A DNA stretch of 64,000 bases from an uncultured Fodinibius sp. (GTDB lineage: Bacteria; Bacteroidota; Rhodothermia; Balneolales; Balneolaceae), in contig CAJXMJ010000002.1 in assembly GCA_913056455.1 (NCBI GenBank), positions 186,001-250,000 of the forward strand. Reading direction: 5' to 3'. The notes under the pieces are model-generated. The model saw nothing but the letters and a program-made list of their open reading frames with translations. It did not search any database and had not been told where the DNA came from. The position numbers and the translations under genes are program-made. Shown here one piece after another: positions 13,492 through 57,024 of this stretch (its first letter is position 1; each line of letters opens with the position of its first letter).

Positions 13492-13560
13492 GTCATCCTG
13501 AATTTATTTCAGGATCTAAATGGTCCTACTTAATAGATTCTGAAACAAGTTCAGCATGAC
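13492..13560. repeat. REP-like palindromic element, copy 1 (murG/murC)
   Basis: The outer ends GTCATCCTGAA and TTCAGCATGAC form an inverted repeat. Inside are two hairpins, TCCTGAA/TTCAGGA and CTGAA/TTCAG, separated by a variable spacer. Related copies occur at 15020 and 15905 in this cluster and at 23571, 43090, 49372 and 53451. Confidence 0.85.
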
Positions 13561-32195: not shown

Positions 32196-32218
32196 CTATT
32201 TAGAATTAGTCTATATAG
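32196..32218. promoter_or_regulatory. Operator-like palindrome A before the DUF4856/imelysin operon
   Basis: Arms CTATTTAGA and TCTATATAG (one mismatch) enclose the 5-base centre ATTAG, giving core TTAGA-N5-TCTAT. The same 9-5-9 layout and TTAGA-N5-TCTAA core recur at 39931-39953 before the other iron-related genes. It lies 52 bases upstream of the DUF4856 start. It may be an iron regulator site of DtxR type, by inference only. Confidence 0.5.
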
Positions 32219-32269
32219 TTATTATTTTCTCTCGCTAATTATAATTAATATAAATAAACATAACCGGAA

Positions 32270-33436
32270 ATGTTACGCACAGCACTATTCAAATTCGTGT
32301 TACCTGCCCTGGCGATATCACTAATTATATCCTCGTGTGATATCCTCGATAGCAATGATGATGACTCAAGTATTCAAGCTCCCGATACCTATGAATTTAC
32401 CCGCAATGGAGAGTCAACAGTTGCATACCCCGGTCAAAATGATCGACTCGACATGGTTGAAGAAATGAAGGCCTATATTGCCACATCTCATGACGGGGAG
32501 ACTATTTCCAAGCAAGTCCTAAACGACATGTTTGAAAATACGAACGGAGACGGAGGCGGGCACTTCACCTTTGAATCCCAAAAACAGCTCAAGAACAAAA
32601 CGTTTGGCCCCGATCTTGACGACAATCTATTTGAGAATATTTTCGCTGATGCAGAAGCCGCCAGCGAAAATGGAAGTGCCGGTATTCGTGCCAATAATGG
32701 TCGAGCAGGATTGCTCGAGCGAGAAGGCAGCGGAAACGATATTTTAGTTGATGCCAAGGGACGTGAATTTACCCAGCTCGTAGAAAAAGGATTGATGGGC
32801 GCCGTCTTTTATCATCAGATTTTCAATGTATACCTGACCGACCAGAAAATTGGCCCCGATGTTGAAAACAGTGAAACCGAAGAGGGAGCCAATTACACCA
32901 CGAAAGAACATCACTTTGATGAAGCATTCGGCTATTTTAATGCACCCGCTGATTTTGAATCGGATTGGTCGGATTCACGCACCGATGAGCTTCGGTTCTG
33001 GAGTAAATACTCCAACGGCTCTGACGAATTCCTTGGCTTCAATGATGCGATTATGGAAGCATTTATAAAAGGACGTACGGCCATTGTAAATGACAACCAA
33101 AACGAGCTGAATGAACAGGTTGATGTACTGTATGAAGAGCTTGAATTGCTTTCTGCTGCAACGGCTGTTCATTATATTAACAGCACGCTAAGCCATCTTA
33201 ACAATGGTGACACCGGAGAAGCCTTTCACGCACTTTCCGAAGCCTGGGCGTTTGTTAATGCACTGAAATATAACCCCAATAGAAAAATTACACACGAACA
33301 GATTGACCAGATCTTAAACACTGATTTTGGTGAAAATGGTAACTTCTGGAAAGCAGAACCTAAAGATCTGAACAACGCAAAAGATACGCTTGTTGACACT
33401 TACCCCGCTCTTGAAGACGTAGAAGGTGAACTTTAA
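32270..33436 (+). CDS. DUF4856-type lipoprotein of an iron-uptake island
   Basis: 388 residues with a lipoprotein signal ending LIISSC (Cys23), so outer-membrane anchored. The mature protein begins with an Asp-rich spacer (DSNDDDSS) and is mainly helical, with AATAVHYINSTLSHLNNGDTGEAFHALSEAWAFVNAL near the C-terminus. The whole resembles the DUF4856 family found beside imelysin and TonB receptors in Bacteroidota. Exact function unknown; the placement suggests surface handling of iron. First gene of the island, followed by a terminator-like hairpin before the imelysin gene. Confidence 0.78.
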   Translation: MLRTALFKFVLPALAISLIISSCDILDSNDDDSSIQAPDTYEFTRNGESTVAYPGQNDRLDMVEEMKAYIATSHDGETISKQVLNDMFENTNGDGGGHFTFESQKQLKNKTFGPDLDDNLFENIFADAEAASENGSAGIRANNGRAGLLEREGSGNDILVDAKGREFTQLVEKGLMGAVFYHQIFNVYLTDQKIGPDVENSETEEGANYTTKEHHFDEAFGYFNAPADFESDWSDSRTDELRFWSKYSNGSDEFLGFNDAIMEAFIKGRTAIVNDNQNELNEQVDVLYEELELLSAATAVHYINSTLSHLNNGDTGEAFHALSEAWAFVNALKYNPNRKITHEQIDQILNTDFGENGNFWKAEPKDLNNAKDTLVDTYPALEDVEGEL

Positions 33437-33452
33437 ACATTTTTAACTCTCC

Positions 33453-33488
33453 GGAGCCAATCCGGTCTATACCGGTTTGGCTCCTTTT
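33453..33488 (+). terminator. Terminator or attenuator between the DUF4856 and imelysin genes
   Basis: GGAGCCAA and CCGG (33453-33465) pair with CCGG and TTGGCTCC (33472-33484), with one T-T mismatch and loop TCTATA; TTTT follows. Lying inside an apparently single transcription unit, it would give more of the first lipoprotein than of the downstream genes. Confidence 0.8.
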
Positions 33489-33502
33489 AATTTAGATCTG
33501 CC

Positions 33503-34600
33503 ATGTTACAATTCAACAAACTATCGCTTTTACTCATCCTGGCAATTTTTGTTGGTGCCTGCAGCAGCACTAACTCAGACAATGAAACCAACTTCGATCG
33601 GGCTGCAATGCTCGAAAACTATGGTAATAACATCATTGTGCCCGCATTTGAAGATATGCAAGAAGCCACTAATGAGCTGAAAACAGCAGCGCAAAACTTT
33701 GAAACCGAACGCACTGTACAGCAGTTGGAAAACCTGCAAAACCAACTCAAACAAACCCGGCTTGCCTGGCAAGAGGTAAGTCCATTCCAGTTTGGACCGG
33801 CAGAATCAATATTGCTTCGCGCCTCCCTTAACACCTACCCGGTTGATACCGACAAGGTTCAGAATAATGTGTCTTCGGGCGACTACTCCTTTGGCACCAT
33901 CGACAGTCGCGACGCTACCGGCTTACCTTCATTGGGATATTTACTGCACGGCGTTGGTGAAACACAAGAAGAAATTTTGACCATGTATACTGCCGACGTG
34001 GATGCCGAAAACCGAATGACATATCTACTCGGAAATATCAATTTCATTAAAGAAAAGGTTGATACGGCAACCGAAGAATGGCAATCATCCGGCGGTGATT
34101 ATATCGGGATGTTTTTGAGTGAAGAGAATGCAGGCACTGATGTAGGAAGCTCTTTAGGCATGCTTATTAACAGCTATGTCAAACATTATGAACGCTTTCT
34201 GCGCGATGGTAAAATAGGCATTCCCGCTGGAGTGCGTAGTGCAGAAACTCCTCGTCCCTTAGCGGTAGAGGCCTATTACGCCGGATATTCTGTTGAACTC
34301 GCTTCAGCTAATTTACAGCAGGTAGGAAGGATTTTCACCGGCGGTGATAGTAGAGGATTGGACGATAATCTTGAAGAACTCGGAACCGAAGACCTATCTA
34401 ATGAGATACAAACTCAAATTGATGAGGCACAGTCTTCACTCGATGGACTCAATGACCCACTTTCCCAACAGATTGAAGAAAATAATGACCCTGTCTTAAC
34501 CACCTACCAAGAAATGCAGCAGGTGGTAGATCTTCTCAAAGCCGACATGACCTCCATCCTGGGCATCACTATCACTTTCCAAGACACCGACGGTGACTAA
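33503..34600 (+). CDS. Imelysin-family iron-regulated lipoprotein
   Basis: 365 residues; lipobox FVGAC with Cys20. Helical protein of the imelysin/IrpA (peptidase M75) group, with LKQTRLAWQEVSPFQFGPAESI and SRDATGLPSLGYLLHGVGE as recognisable blocks, and an acidic C-terminal region. Imelysin-like proteins are periplasmic or surface proteins linked to iron uptake; they are not active peptidases as far as known. The GxHxxE motif described for some members is not evident here. Followed after 6 bases by the HTTM gene. Confidence 0.85.
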   Translation: MLQFNKLSLLLILAIFVGACSSTNSDNETNFDRAAMLENYGNNIIVPAFEDMQEATNELKTAAQNFETERTVQQLENLQNQLKQTRLAWQEVSPFQFGPAESILLRASLNTYPVDTDKVQNNVSSGDYSFGTIDSRDATGLPSLGYLLHGVGETQEEILTMYTADVDAENRMTYLLGNINFIKEKVDTATEEWQSSGGDYIGMFLSEENAGTDVGSSLGMLINSYVKHYERFLRDGKIGIPAGVRSAETPRPLAVEAYYAGYSVELASANLQQVGRIFTGGDSRGLDDNLEELGTEDLSNEIQTQIDEAQSSLDGLNDPLSQQIEENNDPVLTTYQEMQQVVDLLKADMTSILGITITFQDTDGD

Positions 34601-34606
34601 TAGCTC

Positions 34607-36007
34607 ATGATTCCCGAGGCGATCAAAAAGCATATTACAGGGCGCATTTCCATTGCCCCGCTGGCGGTATTCCGTTTCCTTTTCGGATTCATTATGCTCG
34701 TCAGCATCATCCGTTTTGCCTGCAATGGCTGGATTTACGATCTCTATATTAAGCCCGACTTTTTTTTCACCTTTTACGGATTTGACTGGGTCACACCGCT
34801 GGGTGAAACCGGCATGTACCTATTATTTTTGGGGATGGGTATCGCTGCCCTATCCATCATGCTCGGCTACTATTACCGGGTGGGTATTATCTTTTTCTTC
34901 CTGGCCTTTACCTATGTCGAACTCATCGACAAAACCAACTACCTGAATCATTACTACTTTGTCAGCATCGTCAGTTTTTTGCTGATGTTTGTGCCTGCCA
35001 ACCGTAGCTTTTCCATTGATGTTCTACGCAAACCCTCGCTCCGTCGCGAATACGTGCCCGCCTGGACGATCAACATTTTTAAACTGCAACTGGGACTCGT
35101 ATACTTTTTTGCCGGCGTTGCCAAACTCAATCCGGACTGGTTGCTCAACGCCATGCCGCTTCAAATCTGGCTGCCCGCTAACGCTGACCTCCCAATCGTT
35201 GGTCCACTGCTTGAATACACGGCAAGCGCCTACATTTTCAGTTGGGCAGGTGCCTTTTACGATCTCACCATTGCCTTTTTCCTACTCTGGAAACGAACCC
35301 GAATCCTGGCATACGTGGCCGTGATTGGATTTCACATGTTCACGTGGTTCCTCTTTCAGATCGGCATGTTTCCATTCATTATGATTCTGTGTACCCTCAT
35401 ATTTTTCTCAGCCGATTTCCACAAAAAAGTTATTAAAGTCATATCAGGTTTGAGAACATATCTTCCGTTTTCAATGCCAGAGTCAAAAACCGCAGAGAAA
35501 AAAGATTATCAGCTTACTAAAAGCATGAATGGAATGATAAGCAGTATCCTTATCATTCATTTTGTCCTTCAGTTTTTACTGCCGCTCCGGTTTATGCTCT
35601 ATCCCGGCAATCTTTTCTGGACTGAACAGGGATTTCGCTTTTCATGGCGGGTTATGCTGATGGAGAAAGCAGGCCATGCTACCTTTCATATGAAGAATCC
35701 CGAAACAGGAAATGAATGGCAGGTTCGAAACTGGGATTATCTCACTCCGGAACAAGAAAAGGAGATGTCCACTCGACCGGATATGATTCTACAATTTGCC
35801 CACTATCTTGAAGATCAGTACCAAAAAAACTTCTCCGGGGATGTGATAGTTACTGCAGAATCTAATGTGACTTTAAATGGGCGACGCAGCCAGCCGCTGA
35901 TAGATCCAACTGTAGATCTCACCGAACAAGAGCGGGGCTTTGCTCACAAAGACTGGATTCTACCCTTTAATGAAGATCAACAGAATTGGTTCAAAAATCT
36001 GCAATGA
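34607..36007 (+). CDS. HTTM-domain membrane protein (vitamin K-dependent gamma-carboxylase-like)
   Basis: 466 residues with about 8-10 membrane helices in the first 330 residues, followed by a soluble C-terminal domain. It matches bacterial homologues of vitamin K-dependent gamma-glutamyl carboxylase: AVFRFLFGFIML at the start, LNHYYFV (His115) and the conserved FAGVAKLNPDWLL with Lys173, equivalent in position to the catalytic-lysine block of the human enzyme by my reading. The bacterial substrate is unknown. The stop overlaps the TonB receptor start (ATGA), so the two are made together. Confidence 0.85.
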   Translation: MIPEAIKKHITGRISIAPLAVFRFLFGFIMLVSIIRFACNGWIYDLYIKPDFFFTFYGFDWVTPLGETGMYLLFLGMGIAALSIMLGYYYRVGIIFFFLAFTYVELIDKTNYLNHYYFVSIVSFLLMFVPANRSFSIDVLRKPSLRREYVPAWTINIFKLQLGLVYFFAGVAKLNPDWLLNAMPLQIWLPANADLPIVGPLLEYTASAYIFSWAGAFYDLTIAFFLLWKRTRILAYVAVIGFHMFTWFLFQIGMFPFIMILCTLIFFSADFHKKVIKVISGLRTYLPFSMPESKTAEKKDYQLTKSMNGMISSILIIHFVLQFLLPLRFMLYPGNLFWTEQGFRFSWRVMLMEKAGHATFHMKNPETGNEWQVRNWDYLTPEQEKEMSTRPDMILQFAHYLEDQYQKNFSGDVIVTAESNVTLNGRRSQPLIDPTVDLTEQERGFAHKDWILPFNEDQQNWFKNLQ

Positions 36008-38484
36008 TGAAACTTCGTGCACTATCCTTTTTACTTTGTTTTACTCTATTCTCTTTTGGTGTAACATTTGCTCAAAGTTATACTTTATCAGGTACCGTTA
36101 CTGATAACAGTGGTGATCCTATTGAGGAGGTTCGAATTTATGTTTCTGAAGATAGCTCAAACAACGGGAACGCTGTACCCGTGCGATATCAATCCAAAAC
36201 CTCCACCAATGAGCGGGGACAATATATCATGCGCGACCTGACAGCCGGCAGGTATATTGTTATCGCATATTATCCCGGCAAGCAAACGCAAAGCCAAACC
36301 GTAAATATCACGAGCAACACGGAAAAGAATTTTGAGCTTAAGGGTTTTGAAAGTGAAATGGCGGAAGTTGTCGTGGACGGTAAACAACAGCAGCAAACAA
36401 GCGGAATCACCCGCCTGCAAGCCGTCGAAGGAGTAACCATCAACGAGAGCAAAAAAAATGAAGTACTTGTTCTTGAAGATATGGTTGTTAACAAAGCGAC
36501 AAACAACAACCGGCAAGTCTATTCCAAAGTACCCGGGCTGAACATCTGGCAGAGTGGTGATGCCGGCATACAAACCAGCGTGGGCGGACGCGGGCTAAGC
36601 CCCAAACGAAACTCCAATTTTAACACCCGGCAGAATGGATATGATATCGCCGCCGATGCACTCGGATATCCCGAAAGTTATTACACGCCTCCCGTGCAGG
36701 CCCTTGAACGCATCGAGATTATTCGAGGTGCTGCATCCCTACAGTATGGAACCCAATTTGGTGGCATGCTTAATTTCGAATTTAAAGATGGTCCCGAAGA
36801 TACCCCTTTCGAGCTAAATACCAATCAATCGGTGGGCTCCTTCGGATTATTCAATTCCTTTAATAGCGTAGGTGGCAAGAAGGGAGACATTCGTTATTAT
36901 GGATTTTACCAGTATAAAACCAGTGATGGATGGCGGCCAAATTCACAACTTGATCAGCATACCGCATATGTTTCCGTTGACCTCAACCTAAGCGAAAAGC
37001 TAACGTTGACGCCAGAGTATACCCACATGTATTATCTGGCACAGCAACCCGGCGGTTTAACAGACGCCCAATTTTATGAAGATCCGAGTCAATCGAACCG
37101 AGAACGCAATTGGTTTAAAGTAAACTGGAATATTTTTGCCCTTGATGCAGATTACATTTTTAACAGTAAAACCAGGATTAACAGCCGCTTTTTTGGCCTA
37201 CTTGCCGGTCGCGATGCCCTTGGCAACCTGCAGCGTATAGATCGCCTTGATTTCGGTGGAGAACGCGACCTGCTTAAAGATGACTTCCAAAACTGGGGCA
37301 ACGAAACACGCCTTATACACCGCTATAATTTTCTCAACGGCATCTCTGTTTTCTTGGCCGGCACCCGTTTTTATAACGGCTATACACATCGCCGACAAGG
37401 CAATGGCCCGGCCGGGAGTGAGCCCCGATTCCGATACCTTAATCCTGCGAACCTCGAAGGATCCGATTTTGATTTGCCCAGCCAAAACCGATCCGTCTTT
37501 ATCGAAAATATTTTCAATATAACGCCTAAATTCAGCGTTACGCCGGGCATCCGTTTTGAATATATTAAAACCGAAGCCGAGGGCTACTACCGAAATATTG
37601 TAAGAGACCTGGCCGGTAATATACTGGTTGATGAGCGCATTACGGAAGACCGAAGTCGCAAACGTTCGCTCGTGCTTTTTGGCATCGGATCGAGTTATCG
37701 TCCGAGCAATCAACTTGAGATCTACGGGAATTTCTCCCAGAACTATCGCGCCATTAACTTTAATGATATCCGTGTGGATGTTGGTAACCTCGAAGTGGAT
37801 CCAAACCTACAAGATGAGCGTGGTTACAATATGGATCTGGGGATTCGCGGACAGGTTGATAATCTATTCCAGTATGATGCAACTGTTTTTCACCTTTCGT
37901 ATGAAGATCGAATCGGAACAGTACTGCGCACCGAACCCAATCCAAAATTTAATGGCTTAATCGATCGTACTTTTCGGTATCGAACCAACATCGCCGATGC
38001 CAAAATATACGGCATAGAATCATTTGCCGAGGTTGACCTGCTAAAACTTTTTAAGCTCGATACACAAACACGTCTCTCAGTTTTTACAAACCTGGCACTT
38101 ATTCAAGCCACATACACCGAGTCTGATGAACCCGGCATTGAGGGTAATGACGTAGAGCTCGTTCCCCCACTGAATTTTAAAACGGGACTCACTTTTTCAA
38201 AAAACGGTTTTGAAGCGTCTTATCAATTTTCCTATGTAGCTGAGCACTTCTCTGATGCTTCTAATGCTCTCCGTACTCCCACAGCTATCGAAGGCATTAT
38301 CCCATCTTACAAGGTGATGGATTTATCGGCTAAATACACTTTTAGCCGTTTTACATTGGAGGGAGGAGTCAACAACCTCATGAATGAGAAGTATTTTACG
38401 CGACGGGCTACCGGCTATCCCGGACCGGGGATTATTCCGGCTAAAATTCGAAACTTCTATTTTTCTGTGGGGATAGAAATTTAG
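36004..38484 (+). CDS. TonB-dependent outer-membrane receptor, ferric-siderophore/dicitrate type
   Basis: 826 residues from ATG 36004 in the ATGA overlap. Signal peptide ending VTFAQ, then a carboxypeptidase-regulatory-like beta domain (YTLSGTVTDNSGDPIEEVRIYV) typical of Bacteroidota receptors. The plug follows, with VVVNKATNNN and IEIIRGAASLQYGTQFGGMLNFE, then a 22-strand-type barrel ending NFYFSVGIEI. The family imports iron chelates using TonB energy. Operon position after imelysin and HTTM supports iron as the cargo; the chelate is not identifiable. Convergent with the FbpA-like gene. Confidence 0.9.
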   Translation: MMKLRALSFLLCFTLFSFGVTFAQSYTLSGTVTDNSGDPIEEVRIYVSEDSSNNGNAVPVRYQSKTSTNERGQYIMRDLTAGRYIVIAYYPGKQTQSQTVNITSNTEKNFELKGFESEMAEVVVDGKQQQQTSGITRLQAVEGVTINESKKNEVLVLEDMVVNKATNNNRQVYSKVPGLNIWQSGDAGIQTSVGGRGLSPKRNSNFNTRQNGYDIAADALGYPESYYTPPVQALERIEIIRGAASLQYGTQFGGMLNFEFKDGPEDTPFELNTNQSVGSFGLFNSFNSVGGKKGDIRYYGFYQYKTSDGWRPNSQLDQHTAYVSVDLNLSEKLTLTPEYTHMYYLAQQPGGLTDAQFYEDPSQSNRERNWFKVNWNIFALDADYIFNSKTRINSRFFGLLAGRDALGNLQRIDRLDFGGERDLLKDDFQNWGNETRLIHRYNFLNGISVFLAGTRFYNGYTHRRQGNGPAGSEPRFRYLNPANLEGSDFDLPSQNRSVFIENIFNITPKFSVTPGIRFEYIKTEAEGYYRNIVRDLAGNILVDERITEDRSRKRSLVLFGIGSSYRPSNQLEIYGNFSQNYRAINFNDIRVDVGNLEVDPNLQDERGYNMDLGIRGQVDNLFQYDATVFHLSYEDRIGTVLRTEPNPKFNGLIDRTFRYRTNIADAKIYGIESFAEVDLLKLFKLDTQTRLSVFTNLALIQATYTESDEPGIEGNDVELVPPLNFKTGLTFSKNGFEASYQFSYVAEHFSDASNALRTPTAIEGIIPSYKVMDLSAKYTFSRFTLEGGVNNLMNEKYFTRRATGYPGPGIIPAKIRNFYFSVGIEI

Positions 38485-38733
38485 AATATGCTCTTATTGT
38501 TGCAAATAAAATATTTTCTTGCGACGGGCATGCCGCATGAGCGACTGACAACTAAAAAAGTTATCTCACCCCGACAGTTGTAGGAAGAGAGATCATATCC
38601 TTTACTTTATTTACGAACAATTTCCGGTTGGAAACATGATAATTAGCGTGGGAACTAATTCCCTGTTCAGAATAATCAGCTTTTCTTCGTAGCATCTGGT
38701 CAAGATAAATTCCAATCCACTCCTACAATTAAA
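38485..38733. other. Intergenic stretch after the TonB receptor
   Basis: About 250 bases before the - strand terminator. No ORF, repeat family member or good + strand terminator seen; a GCATGCCGCATGAGC patch near 38528 is the only GC-rich part. The receptor transcript may simply run into the convergent hairpin at 38734. Confidence 0.5.
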
Positions 38734-38761
38734 AAAGCCCTGTCATTGCTGACAGGGCTTT
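38731..38761 (-). terminator. Terminator of the FbpA-like gene
   Basis: AAAGCCCTGTCA (38734-38745) pairs perfectly with TGACAGGGCTTT (38750-38761), loop TTGC. Read on the - strand it is followed by T6, so it serves the FbpA-like gene; it may also stop the convergent TonB receptor transcript. Confidence 0.88.
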
Positions 38762-38784
38762 AGAAATACAAACTAAATGGAACT

Positions 38785-39855
38785 CTAAATAAGTCCTACT
38801 TCGCGAAGCAGATTCAGTGTTCCTTCCAACTGCTTTAACTGCTCGTAATCATACTCAGGACTTAGCTCAAAGGCCTCCTCAGCATTGAGCATATAATCAG
38901 GCAGTTCAATATCACGAATTACCGGATACTCATGTACTGATTCTGCTGCAAACTCTTGTGCGTGCTGCGATAATAAGAAACTTAAAAACCGCTGGGCTTT
39001 TTCAGAGTTCTGAGCGGTAGTCAGTTGCGCTGCGCCGGTTACCATCGCCAAATTACCCACATCACCTTCAGCAAAATGATACATTTTTACATTTGCATCA
39101 GGATTAGCTTCTCCACTTTCCATGGATGTATCAGAATCCGAATCTGTATCTGAATATTCGCCTCCTGCACCTCCGTGTTTCATTCGAAAAATGTAATAAT
39201 GATTGGTAAGTGCAATATCAATTTCACCGCCGGCAAGGGCTTGTAACATCGGTGTATTTGAGCTGTAGGATTTTGGATTCAGGTTCTGCATCCCTCCCAG
39301 CCATTCTTTAGCAATATCTTCACCTTCGATCAGTCGCATACTTGTCATAAAATCATAAAAACTGGAATAGGTAGGCGTCCACCCTATCCGGCCATCTAAT
39401 TCTTCCATACCGGTAAGGCCCATCACCGATTCAGGGAGATCATTGGGATCAACCTCATTAGGATTATACGCTAATGTTCGAAATCGTACGGTCACCGGAA
39501 TCCATTCTCCGGATGAAGAAGTATAAGAAGCCGGCTTTGATGTCAACGAGTCGGGAAGTGCTACCAGCTTACCTTCCTGTGATGCATTAGCTAATGCCCC
39601 GGTCGTATTGGCCCAATAGATATCGGCCGGACTTTGATCGCCTTCTTCACTCATTACGGCCAGCAGCTCAGCATCATTACCGTATCGGACTTCGATATTG
39701 ACCCCAGTTTGCTCTTTAAAGTCTTGCACCAGCGGATCAACCAATCCTTGACTTCGTCCTGAATATACAACCAACTCATCTTCGGCAGTATCTCCACATG
39801 AACTCAAGAAAAAAGCAGCGATTCCTACTGCCAATATTTTCAAAATATTTTTCAT
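38785..39855 (-). CDS. FbpA-like ferric iron-binding lipoprotein (ABC transporter substrate-binding protein)
   Basis: 356 residues, lipoprotein signal FFLSSC (Cys20). ELVVYSGRSQGLVDPLVQDF and VRYGNDAELLAVM are typical of periplasmic Fe(III)-binding proteins of the FbpA/FutA group; NHYYIFRMK holds the tandem tyrosines that bind iron in the family. A Ser/Asp-rich insertion (about residues 233-252, SDTDSDSDTS) is unusual. No permease or ATPase gene accompanies it here, so it may use a distant transporter or act as a surface iron binder. Divergent from hemG with two palindromes between. Confidence 0.85.
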   Translation of the reverse strand: MKNILKILAVGIAAFFLSSCGDTAEDELVVYSGRSQGLVDPLVQDFKEQTGVNIEVRYGNDAELLAVMSEEGDQSPADIYWANTTGALANASQEGKLVALPDSLTSKPASYTSSSGEWIPVTVRFRTLAYNPNEVDPNDLPESVMGLTGMEELDGRIGWTPTYSSFYDFMTSMRLIEGEDIAKEWLGGMQNLNPKSYSSNTPMLQALAGGEIDIALTNHYYIFRMKHGGAGGEYSDTDSDSDTSMESGEANPDANVKMYHFAEGDVGNLAMVTGAAQLTTAQNSEKAQRFLSFLLSQHAQEFAAESVHEYPVIRDIELPDYMLNAEEAFELSPEYDYEQLKQLEGTLNLLREVGLI

Positions 39856-39906
39856 AATTATAAATCCTCAGTCTTCACTTCTCATTAATATTTTATTACT
39901 ATCATT

Positions 39907-39928
39907 TTAGTGTGAGTAATCACACTAA
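39907..39928. promoter_or_regulatory. Palindrome TTAGTGTGA-N4-TCACACTAA
   Basis: Perfect 9-bp arms (39907-39915 and 39920-39928) around GTAA in the 127-base spacer between the divergent FbpA-like and hemG genes. It is 2 bases from the second palindrome at 39931. TGTGA-N4-TCACA is the Crp/Fnr-family type of site (TGTGA-N6-TCACA in E. coli, here with a 4-base spacer), so a different or related regulator is possible. Confidence 0.55.
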
Positions 39929-39930
39929 GC

Positions 39931-39953
39931 TTAATTAGATTAATTCTAATTAA
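39931..39953. promoter_or_regulatory. Operator-like palindrome B between the FbpA-like gene and hemG
   Basis: Perfect 9-bp arms TTAATTAGA and TCTAATTAA around TTAAT. The core TTAGA-N5-TCTAA matches palindrome A at 32196. It is 29 bases before the hemG ATG and 75 bases before the FbpA-like ATG, so it could control both. Confidence 0.55.
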
Positions 39954-39982: not shown

Positions 39983-41341
39983 ATGACCAATAAAAAACAA
40001 TCGGTTGGCATACTTGGAGCAGGAATTTCGGGGTTATCAGCAGCATATAAATTATCCCAAAACAATATTAACATAACGGTCTATGAAAAAGACAACCAAG
40101 TAGGCGGAGCTATTAAAACAAATAGCAAAAATGGCTGGCTGGTTGAAGAGGGACCCAATACTCTTATGGTCAAATCGGAGGCAGTTTGGGATCTGCTTAG
40201 AGATTTGAATCTAATAACCAGCAGTATCGAAGCGAGCAAAACGGCCAAAAAGAGGTTCATCGTTAAAAATGGCCAACCCACTCCTCTACCGATGTCACTG
40301 GGTAGTTTTCTGACTACCAATCTCTTTTCTGTCAAAGCAAAATTTCGGCTACTCAAAGAACCTTTTATTTCTAAATCAAATAAAGAGGATGAGTCTATTG
40401 CCGACTTTATCACTCGTCGCCTGGGCAGCGAGCCACTGGACTACGGCGTAAATCCTTTTGTATCCGGAATTTATGCCGGTGATCCCAAAACATTATCAGT
40501 CAAGCACACCTTCGAGCCGCTCTGGAAGATGGAGCAACAGCATGGGAGTTTATTAAAGGGGCTGTTCAAACGTGATCGTAAAAACGATTCTCCAAAGCGG
40601 GCATTACTCTCTTTTAAAAATGGAAATCAACAATTACCTCAGACAATTGCTGATAATTTTAGAAAAAGTATTCAGACCGAAACCAACATCCAATCTGTTG
40701 TTAAGAATGACAATAAATGGATTGTTAATGGGCAGCAAAACAATAGTGCCTTTTCTGAAGAACACGATGTTATTTTATCAACACTTCCGGCACATTTACT
40801 TCCTACTATTTTTGAAGACTCAATATTCAAGCCACTCAATAGTCTATCCTATGCTCCACTCAGCGTTGTTGCATTAGGCTTCTCCGACGAGCAAATTGGC
40901 CATCCTCTAGATGGCTTCGGAATGCTTATTCCCGAAGCCGAAAACCGAAAGACCTTGGGCGTGCTATTCTCCTCGTCACTATTTCCCGATCGTGCACCAG
41001 AAAGTCACCACTTGCTGACATGTTTTGTGGGAGGTGCGAGGAATCCTGATTTGGCAGGAATATCCAAGAAAGGATTACAAGATATTGTTCTATCTGAGAT
41101 TAGCGAACTGCTGAATATCACCGGGAAACCGGTATTCTCGCATTTCCGCTTTTGGCCAAAAACGATTCCCCAATATGAGGTGGGATATGACCACATCCTC
41201 AATCAAATAACAGAAATTGAAAACCTGAAAACAGGTCTATTTATCGATGGCAACTTTCGGGGCGGCGTCTCCGTACCCGACTGTATCTTATCAGGATTTG
41301 AAACGGCTGAAAAAATACAAACGTTTTTAAATGGACAGTAA
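39983..41341 (+). CDS. hemG: Protoporphyrinogen oxidase (oxygen-dependent, FAD)
   Basis: 452-residue flavoprotein that oxidises protoporphyrinogen IX (or coproporphyrinogen) in the penultimate heme step. N-terminal FAD loop GILGAGISGLSAAYKL (9-24), then EKDNQVGGAIKT, and the C-terminal GLFIDGNFRGGVSVPDCI that closes the FAD site. Named hemY in some species. It is separate from the main heme operon at 48-57 kb and shares its promoter region with an iron-binding protein gene, hinting at joint control. Confidence 0.88.
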   Translation: MTNKKQSVGILGAGISGLSAAYKLSQNNINITVYEKDNQVGGAIKTNSKNGWLVEEGPNTLMVKSEAVWDLLRDLNLITSSIEASKTAKKRFIVKNGQPTPLPMSLGSFLTTNLFSVKAKFRLLKEPFISKSNKEDESIADFITRRLGSEPLDYGVNPFVSGIYAGDPKTLSVKHTFEPLWKMEQQHGSLLKGLFKRDRKNDSPKRALLSFKNGNQQLPQTIADNFRKSIQTETNIQSVVKNDNKWIVNGQQNNSAFSEEHDVILSTLPAHLLPTIFEDSIFKPLNSLSYAPLSVVALGFSDEQIGHPLDGFGMLIPEAENRKTLGVLFSSSLFPDRAPESHHLLTCFVGGARNPDLAGISKKGLQDIVLSEISELLNITGKPVFSHFRFWPKTIPQYEVGYDHILNQITEIENLKTGLFIDGNFRGGVSVPDCILSGFETAEKIQTFLNGQ

Positions 41342-55732: not shown

Positions 55733-56854
55733 TTAAGCAGAAACTTTTTTAGATGTTTGCTCTTCCTGTTCAATATCAACTTCGTGATCTAGCTTATCCA
55801 AAACCTGATCGGCCAGGGCTTCAATATATTTTGGATGGTCATTAATACCTTCCATCACTTTCAGGTTTTCAAACTCATAACCTTCCTCTTCGAGATCCTC
55901 TACGAGCTCAACTCCCAACTCAAACAATGTTTCCACGTGATCAGTCACAAAAGCAATCGGGATCATAAGAAAATTCTTAATCCCATACTCGATATGGCGC
56001 TCAACCAGCTCAGCAGTATTGGGCTGTGTCCACTTCTGCGGGCCTACCTTGGATTGATATCCCAACCAGTAATCATGGTCGTACCCACGCATCTCCATTA
56101 TGGCTTCCATCGTCTGATTAATCTCCGTTGTATAGGGATCACCACTCTCAACTTCGAGCATCGGCGTGCCGTGAGCACTAAAGATAAAGTGTGTTTTATT
56201 ACGGGTTTCCTCATCCATCTCGGCCAGAGCCTCATCAATGCGATCGTTCATCGCAGAAAGGTACTTTTCATCGAGATGGTAATTCTTAACGTGAAACTCT
56301 TTCCAAGGCGTATCGTGTCCAAACTTCTCATCACGCTTGGTTTCCCAATCGCGGTAGCTACTGCCGGTTGTTGTCCATGAAAACTGGGGATACAGTGGGA
56401 CCATCACCGCGTGGGTAATCCCATCCTCCTCCATATCTTGCAGAGTCGTCTCAGCAAATGGCAACCAGTAACGCATACAGGTATAGACCTTCACAAACTG
56501 ATCCTCAGGCATAATATTTTTGAGATACTTCTCAAGCCCACGCCGCTGCTTTTCAGTCAGACTGTTGATAGGTGAACAACAGGTTGAAACTATACTTTTC
56601 TTACGATTCAGGCAGTGCTTGTTCCCCATGCAGCCCTTGGGACAGCCATTGATCTCTTCATAATCCTCCTGAACATTGGGAGCCCGAAACTTTGATATAA
56701 CTTTCGCAAAAAAGTCTTGAAATTTTCCACCGCCTAATTTAATAATGTCTTCATCCCTAAAAAGATTATACAAAAATGGTCGAACGGCATAGTCGGCAGT
56801 GGGACCACCGAGGTTCATCAGTACCACACCTATACGCTTCTGTTCTTCTGGCAT
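55733..56854 (-). CDS. hemH: Ferrochelatase with a cysteine-rich insertion
   Basis: 373 residues; inserts Fe(II) into protoporphyrin IX. GVVLMNLGGPTADYAVRPFLYNLF, MRYWLPFAETTLQDM, PQFSWTTTGSSYRD and FSAHGTPM (family's catalytic His) are visible. Between the usual YEEING and SPINSLTEKQ blocks lies an extra run of about 20 residues with cysteines C71, C75, C81, C92 and C93. This is absent from the standard bacterial enzyme and may bind a metal or Fe-S cluster. First gene of the heme operon, 170 bases after a histidine kinase gene. Confidence 0.93.
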   Translation of the reverse strand: MPEEQKRIGVVLMNLGGPTADYAVRPFLYNLFRDEDIIKLGGGKFQDFFAKVISKFRAPNVQEDYEEINGCPKGCMGNKHCLNRKKSIVSTCCSPINSLTEKQRRGLEKYLKNIMPEDQFVKVYTCMRYWLPFAETTLQDMEEDGITHAVMVPLYPQFSWTTTGSSYRDWETKRDEKFGHDTPWKEFHVKNYHLDEKYLSAMNDRIDEALAEMDEETRNKTHFIFSAHGTPMLEVESGDPYTTEINQTMEAIMEMRGYDHDYWLGYQSKVGPQKWTQPNTAELVERHIEYGIKNFLMIPIAFVTDHVETLFELGVELVEDLEEEGYEFENLKVMEGINDHPKYIEALADQVLDKLDHEVDIEQEEQTSKKVSA

Positions 56855-56927: not shown

Positions 56928-57024
56928 ATCATGGTGAAGAAAGCCATTCTTTGTGAAGGAAATTTGAAGAAGGGCTACCAAATTTTATTTAGAACGAGTC
57001 TAACCGAAAGAATTGAGATACCAC

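Follow-up and report, generated by a model that had tools for sequence, protein, structure and literature searches.

Among described iron operators, the closest to those analysed here is the Fur box of Riemerella anatipestifer, ATTTAGAATTATTCTAAAT, which was tested by electrophoretic mobility shift assay (EMSA) on four promoters, in a paper that also quotes the classical Escherichia coli Fur box, GATAATGATAATCATTATC (PMC5609570). The published picture of the Riemerella box is not uniform, since the one quoted in a later paper on this organism (PMC7976709) is different and E. coli-like. In Pseudomonas and Vibrio, imelysin is found in Fur-regulated iron operons, with an EfeB-like peroxidase beside it (PMC3143127). 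A full-text literature search, with subscription journals mostly outside it, found no Fur regulon work on the phylum Balneolota, in which the genus Fodinibius has been placed (PMC9909488). Here we present a comparative analysis of two palindromes, designated sites A and B, which precede the two transcription units of an iron island in an uncultured Fodinibius sp. They lie in a window of 64,000 nucleotides (G000:C2:186001-250000) of the 3.28-Mb genome, and were compared across 58 Balneolota genomes drawn from this bacterium itself, its genus, its family and its order. Taken together, the comparisons lead us to assign a probability of about 0.86 to the prediction that sites A and B are operators of the bacterium's single Fur-type iron regulator.

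Site A (CTATTTAGAATTAGTCTATATAG, 32196-32218) and site B (TTAATTAGATTAATTCTAATTAA, 39931-39953) lie exactly where a preliminary description of this DNA had placed them, and both contain the shared core TTAGA-N5-TCTA(A/T) that it reported. The 9-base arms it ascribed to both are perfect in site B (9/9 pairs), whereas one mismatch reduces those of site A to 8/9. Both sites also fit a longer 19-bp box, ATTTAGA-N5-TCTAAAT, and a third box is found further along the window:

32198-32216, 19-bp box of site A, ATTTAGAATTAGTCTATAT, 54 nt upstream of the DUF4856 start
39933-39951, 19-bp box of site B, AATTAGATTAATTCTAATT, with the hemG start 32 nt away and the fbpA start 78 nt away
56987..57005, minus strand, third box, GGTTAGACTCGTTCTAAAT on the hemH strand, 133 nt upstream of hemH

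The box recurs in the related genomes. With the same pattern read backwards as the control throughout, the exact 19-mer occurred 59 times in the 58 genomes, 37 of which carry it, and the reversed pattern not once. The consensus of the 56 distinct exact sites is TATTTAGA-wtnaw-TCTAAATA. When all 59 contexts were read manually, with representatives checked by Pfam, 48 were found to adjoin iron, haem or iron-sulphur (Fe-S) genes, including those for FbpA- and FbpB-type proteins, FTR1, FeoB, TonB receptors, HemS, CbiX, hemG, SufB, NfuA and flavodoxin, as well as the DUF4856 operon. Within the 12 genomes of the genus, a threshold of at most one mismatch yielded 112 sites against 32 for the control. 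We examined 76 of these places, from eight of the 12 genomes: the box precedes sdhC, a multihaem cytochrome gene and TonB receptor genes in each of the eight, fbpB in six, nfuA in five and a ferredoxin-NADP reductase-like gene in five, and 12 of the 76 places were unrelated or unassigned by manual reading, three of them sharing one conserved NuoL-like gene.

The same bias is seen in the bacterium's own genome, where the 19-mer at up to one mismatch gave 10 sites versus a single control site. Nine of the 10 are intergenic, the remaining one overlapping a gene end, and each of the nine lies upstream of a gene linked to iron, haem, Fe-S proteins or respiration, namely fbpB, FTR1, sdhC, nfuA, a TonB receptor gene (two boxes), the DUF4856 operon, ferredoxin and a multihaem cytochrome c. 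At up to two mismatches, 20 of 28 motif sites were intergenic compared with 5 of 35 control sites (Fisher P 6e-6, a value that takes no account of how genomes are related), and by manual reading none of the five intergenic control sites precedes an iron gene. The preliminary description had proposed scanning the genome for TTAGA-N5-TCTAA; the four exact copies of this 15-mer core lie before hemG/fbpA (site B), hemH, an FbpB-type permease gene and a cytochrome c-FTR1 permease gene, so that all four precede iron or haem genes. With iron, haem or Fe-S genes beside 48 of the 59 exact boxes, the refuting condition named in the preliminary description, a motif as frequent before unrelated genes, does not hold.

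Conservation before orthologous genes points the same way. Across the 58 genomes 15 DUF4856 orthologues were found, that of this bacterium included, and each carries the box with 0-2 mismatches within 260 nt upstream, the best reversed-control matches in these upstream regions having 2-5 mismatches. Furthermore, three named loci from Echinicola (Bacteroidota) show an identical arrangement of the four genes, each locus with two 2-mismatch boxes (3/3). At hemG the box is found at -50/-51 in all 13 close orthologues (12 from the genus plus the neighbour-genus genome G021), standing at -51 in one genome, and the divergent fbpA lies 102-141 nt away at the same loci. Since the box keeps a constant spacing to hemG and a variable one to fbpA, hemG is the likelier target; by this spacing it is the better-supported target of site B, with fbpA a possible one. 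Before hemH the box is kept, eroded on one side, in 10/10 aligned orthologues, and hemH itself was not found in three further stretches examined. The box is therefore conserved in orthologous promoters, as its presence at 15/15 DUF4856 and 13/13 close hemG genes demonstrates. The earlier assignment of the sites to two units holds in that site A precedes the DUF4856 operon and site B lies in the FbpA-like/hemG divergent pair, and is refined in that the spacing at site B favours hemG over fbpA.

The genes concerned are as follows:

32270..33436, plus strand, DUF4856 lipoprotein (Pfam PF16148, 181 bits)
33503..34600, plus strand, imelysin-family (M75) lipoprotein (Pfam PF09375)
34607..36007, plus strand, HTTM protein with a vitamin K-dependent gamma-carboxylase (VKGC) lumenal domain (Pfam PF05090, PF22777)
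36004..38484, plus strand, TonB-dependent outer-membrane receptor (Pfam PF00593, PF07715; start codon inferred)
38785..39855, minus strand, FbpA-like periplasmic solute-binding protein, divergent from hemG (Pfam SBP_bac families)
39983..41341, plus strand, hemG/hemY-type protoporphyrinogen oxidase (NCBIfam TIGR00562, 337 bits, cut-off 98)
55733..56854, minus strand, hemH, ferrochelatase (Pfam PF00762, 303 bits)

The DUF4856 protein, whose nearest named relatives are from an Aliifodinibius metagenome-assembled genome (82%) and Fodinibius halophilus (62%), a resemblance that places the bacterium in Balneolota, matches the FEA1-related lipoprotein family NF038033 of NCBIfam weakly (29 bits, cut-off 250), and for the FbpA-like protein every NCBIfam match is under cut-off. 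The word DUF4856 was not found in the full-text literature search. The occurrence of a gamma-carboxylase-type protein (HTTM plus VKGC lumenal domain, 34607-36007) inside an imelysin/TonB operon is shared, by gene order, with Echinicola.

The preliminary description had ascribed both units to one iron-responsive regulator, for which comparative genomics now provides strong support, and had likened the palindromes to DtxR/MntR-type sites, a likeness that probably misnames the regulator. Half-sites of the DtxR family are of the TTAGG type, whereas sites A and B and the family consensus read TTAGA/TCTAA. The genome does encode one clear DtxR-family protein (C2:120705, 79 bits), its gene beside a TonB receptor gene, and 54 of the 58 genomes have a DtxR-family match; but the box persists in two genomes without any such match (G046 and G055) and in two whose matches are only weak and partial (G025 and G026). 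Moreover, the EMSA-tested Bacteroidota Fur box has the same letters as the two sites, being the best match found, with an identity of 17/19 to site A and 15/19 to site B, and of six letter strings of the motif searched in the literature, two were matched, both in PMC5609570 alone. We therefore regard binding of these palindromes by a regulator of the DtxR/MntR/IdeR family as improbable. A Fur-family gene is present once in the bacterium's own genome (PF01475, 100 bits) and in 56 of the 58 genomes. Given the Riemerella match, this distribution and the missing or weak DtxR in four box-bearing genomes, Fur is most likely the regulator of the boxes, its binding and its dependence on iron being predictions from these comparisons.

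The identity of the Fur-family protein itself must also be weighed. The protein falls below every curated Fur or PerR cut-off in NCBIfam, its top match there being a PerR model, and the PerR box of Bacillus, TTAnAATnATTnTAA, a 7-1-7 AT-rich palindrome, is close to sites A and B. A PerR-type peroxide sensor acting at PerR boxes would account for these likenesses. The solved structure nearest to the protein is, however, what we take to be Campylobacter Fur, with presumably Bacillus PerR third, and the box targets read serve iron uptake, haem and Fe-S functions, with none recognised by eye as catalase, ahpC or dps. The assignment as Fur rather than PerR is made from the targets and the nearest structure only, and on these grounds we consider a peroxide sensor slightly less probable still than a DtxR-type regulator. 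A chance likeness between the two palindromes, arising in AT-rich spacer DNA, would be in keeping with the raw counts: in the window alone the motif at up to one mismatch has 4 matches versus 2.75 expected from shuffles, which is not remarkable, and the exact core, with 4 sites genome-wide versus 7 for the reversed pattern, is not enriched. Count alone thus makes no case; position and conservation make it. The 59 versus 0 exact occurrences in relatives, the intergenic fractions of 20/28 and 5/35 and the fixed positions before orthologues leave chance hardly credible.

Several observations weigh against a single Fur acting through these boxes. Of the 59 exact sites, 11 have no gene tied to iron beside them (three before an Rrf2-family regulator, one before a homologue of the L027 small protein and seven without an iron link), and nine of 17 distant hemG orthologues in fetched loci lack the box, the other eight having it with 0-2 mismatches. 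The raw own-genome count at up to two mismatches is below that of the reversed control (28 vs 35), and the 2-mismatch class includes the unrelated targets hisF, fliE, a glycosyltransferase gene and an enoyl-CoA hydratase gene; because many such targets are unrelated, specificity is confined to sites that have 0-1 mismatch or are conserved. Finally, no Fur-family match was obtained in two genomes that carry the box, G018 (71% complete) and G033 (93% complete), and no box was found before fur itself in the loci scanned.

For Fur at these sites, we propose that the iron-loaded dimer would bind the 19-bp palindrome ATTTAGA-N5-TCTAAAT. At site A, close to the promoter, it would repress the DUF4856-imelysin-HTTM-TonB operon until iron runs short, and at site B it would sit at the hemG promoter. 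The same box may thereby place in one regulon the genes for iron import (fbpB, FTR1, TonB receptors), those for haem synthesis (hemG, hemH) and those for proteins that use iron (sdhC, nfuA, ferredoxin, multihaem cytochrome).

The direction of control was approached through promoter geometry. The promoter pattern TAnnTTTG by itself is not enriched (15 vs 12.4 shuffled), and TTG-N18-22-TAnnTT is modestly so (26 forward, 11 reverse, 14.6 shuffled). Using a looser form, TTG-N19-21-NAnnTT, in which the first base of the -7 element is free and which was picked after viewing the alignments, we found that in four gene groups an element keeps a constant position with respect to the box. It stands at +51/52 from the box in 9/9 genomes for sdhC and at +40/41 in 4/4 for ferredoxin, the boxes of both ending 21-33 nt upstream of it; for fbpB it stands at -20 (7/7), the box enclosing the -7-type element, and for the FNR-like gene at -36 (6/6), with the box just downstream of the -7-type element. 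Elsewhere a fixed element was seen in 4/7 cases for nfuA, at best 2/13 for hemG, 1/9 for the cytochrome, 1/7 for DUF4856, 0/2 for hemH and 0/2 for FTR1. These arrangements hint that a box upstream of the promoter could mean activation and a box on the promoter repression; the evidence for two geometries is weak, since the element is shared among orthologues by descent and none was found in several groups.

A broader and tentative extension, to which we give rather less than even odds, is that in Balneolota one Fur directly runs the iron economy both ways, with box position setting the direction. Where the box overlaps or abuts the promoter (fbpB, FTR1, FNR-like gene, DUF4856 operon), it would then repress when iron is plentiful, and where it ends 21-33 nt ahead of the -33-type element (sdhC, ferredoxin), it would let iron-loaded Fur activate iron-rich enzymes. 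With such direct activation, no RyhB-like small RNA would be required to shut off iron-rich enzymes when iron is scarce. In the same scheme, the DUF4856-imelysin-HTTM(gamma-carboxylase)-TonB operon would be an iron-uptake system shared with Bacteroidota, and no description of this system was found in the literature searched.

Additional observations were made on the box-bearing loci and the window. Three genomes from another family of the order carry an exact box 50-51 nt upstream of a gene for an Rrf2-family regulator (L200, L201, L202), and a Fur-to-Rrf2 cascade is possible there. A 1-mismatch box is found 154-159 nt before a gene that by eye looks like a NuoL-type subunit in three genus genomes (L226, L236, L208), and a conserved protein of ~195-200 aa with a transposase-like helix-turn-helix start is encoded divergently from box-bearing TonB receptor genes (L181, L184, L185, L221, L265). 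Beside site B, at 39907-39928, a perfect 9-4-9 palindrome, TTAGTGTGA-GTAA-TCACACTAA, was rejected as a general operator; it has a single copy in the genome at up to three mismatches and is absent or degraded in sister species. A further palindromic repeat type, GATCCTGAAC-N3-GTTCAGGATG, has six copies in the window (at 13494, 15090, 15907, 15953, 23571 and 53517) and is likely an interspersed repeat family.

The findings provide a usable search pattern for the Balneolota iron regulon, tie DUF4856 and the HTTM/gamma-carboxylase-type protein to predicted iron control, and predict that succinate dehydrogenase, ferredoxin, Nfu and two haem-synthesis genes share an operator with iron uptake. It is for this predicted direct control of iron-using genes that an experiment would be worthwhile. 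The putative operator appears to be of a known kind in a new phylum, with a predicted regulon far larger than the island. Like the Riemerella Fur box, it is the same 19-bp palindrome with an AT-rich centre near the start codons of iron genes; unlike it, the box occurs here in Balneolota, lies also before iron-using and haem-synthesis genes, and is known from sequence alone. It shares with the E. coli Fur box the form of a 19-bp AT-rich palindrome at iron promoters, with a half-site of TTTAGA in place of GATAAT. The Bacillus PerR box is a similar 7-1-7 AT-rich palindrome, whereas the targets here belong to iron homeostasis and not to peroxide defence. As in Pseudomonas and Vibrio, an imelysin gene lies in an iron operon, here predicted to be Fur-controlled, but its partners in this bacterium are DUF4856, an HTTM/gamma-carboxylase-type protein and a TonB receptor.

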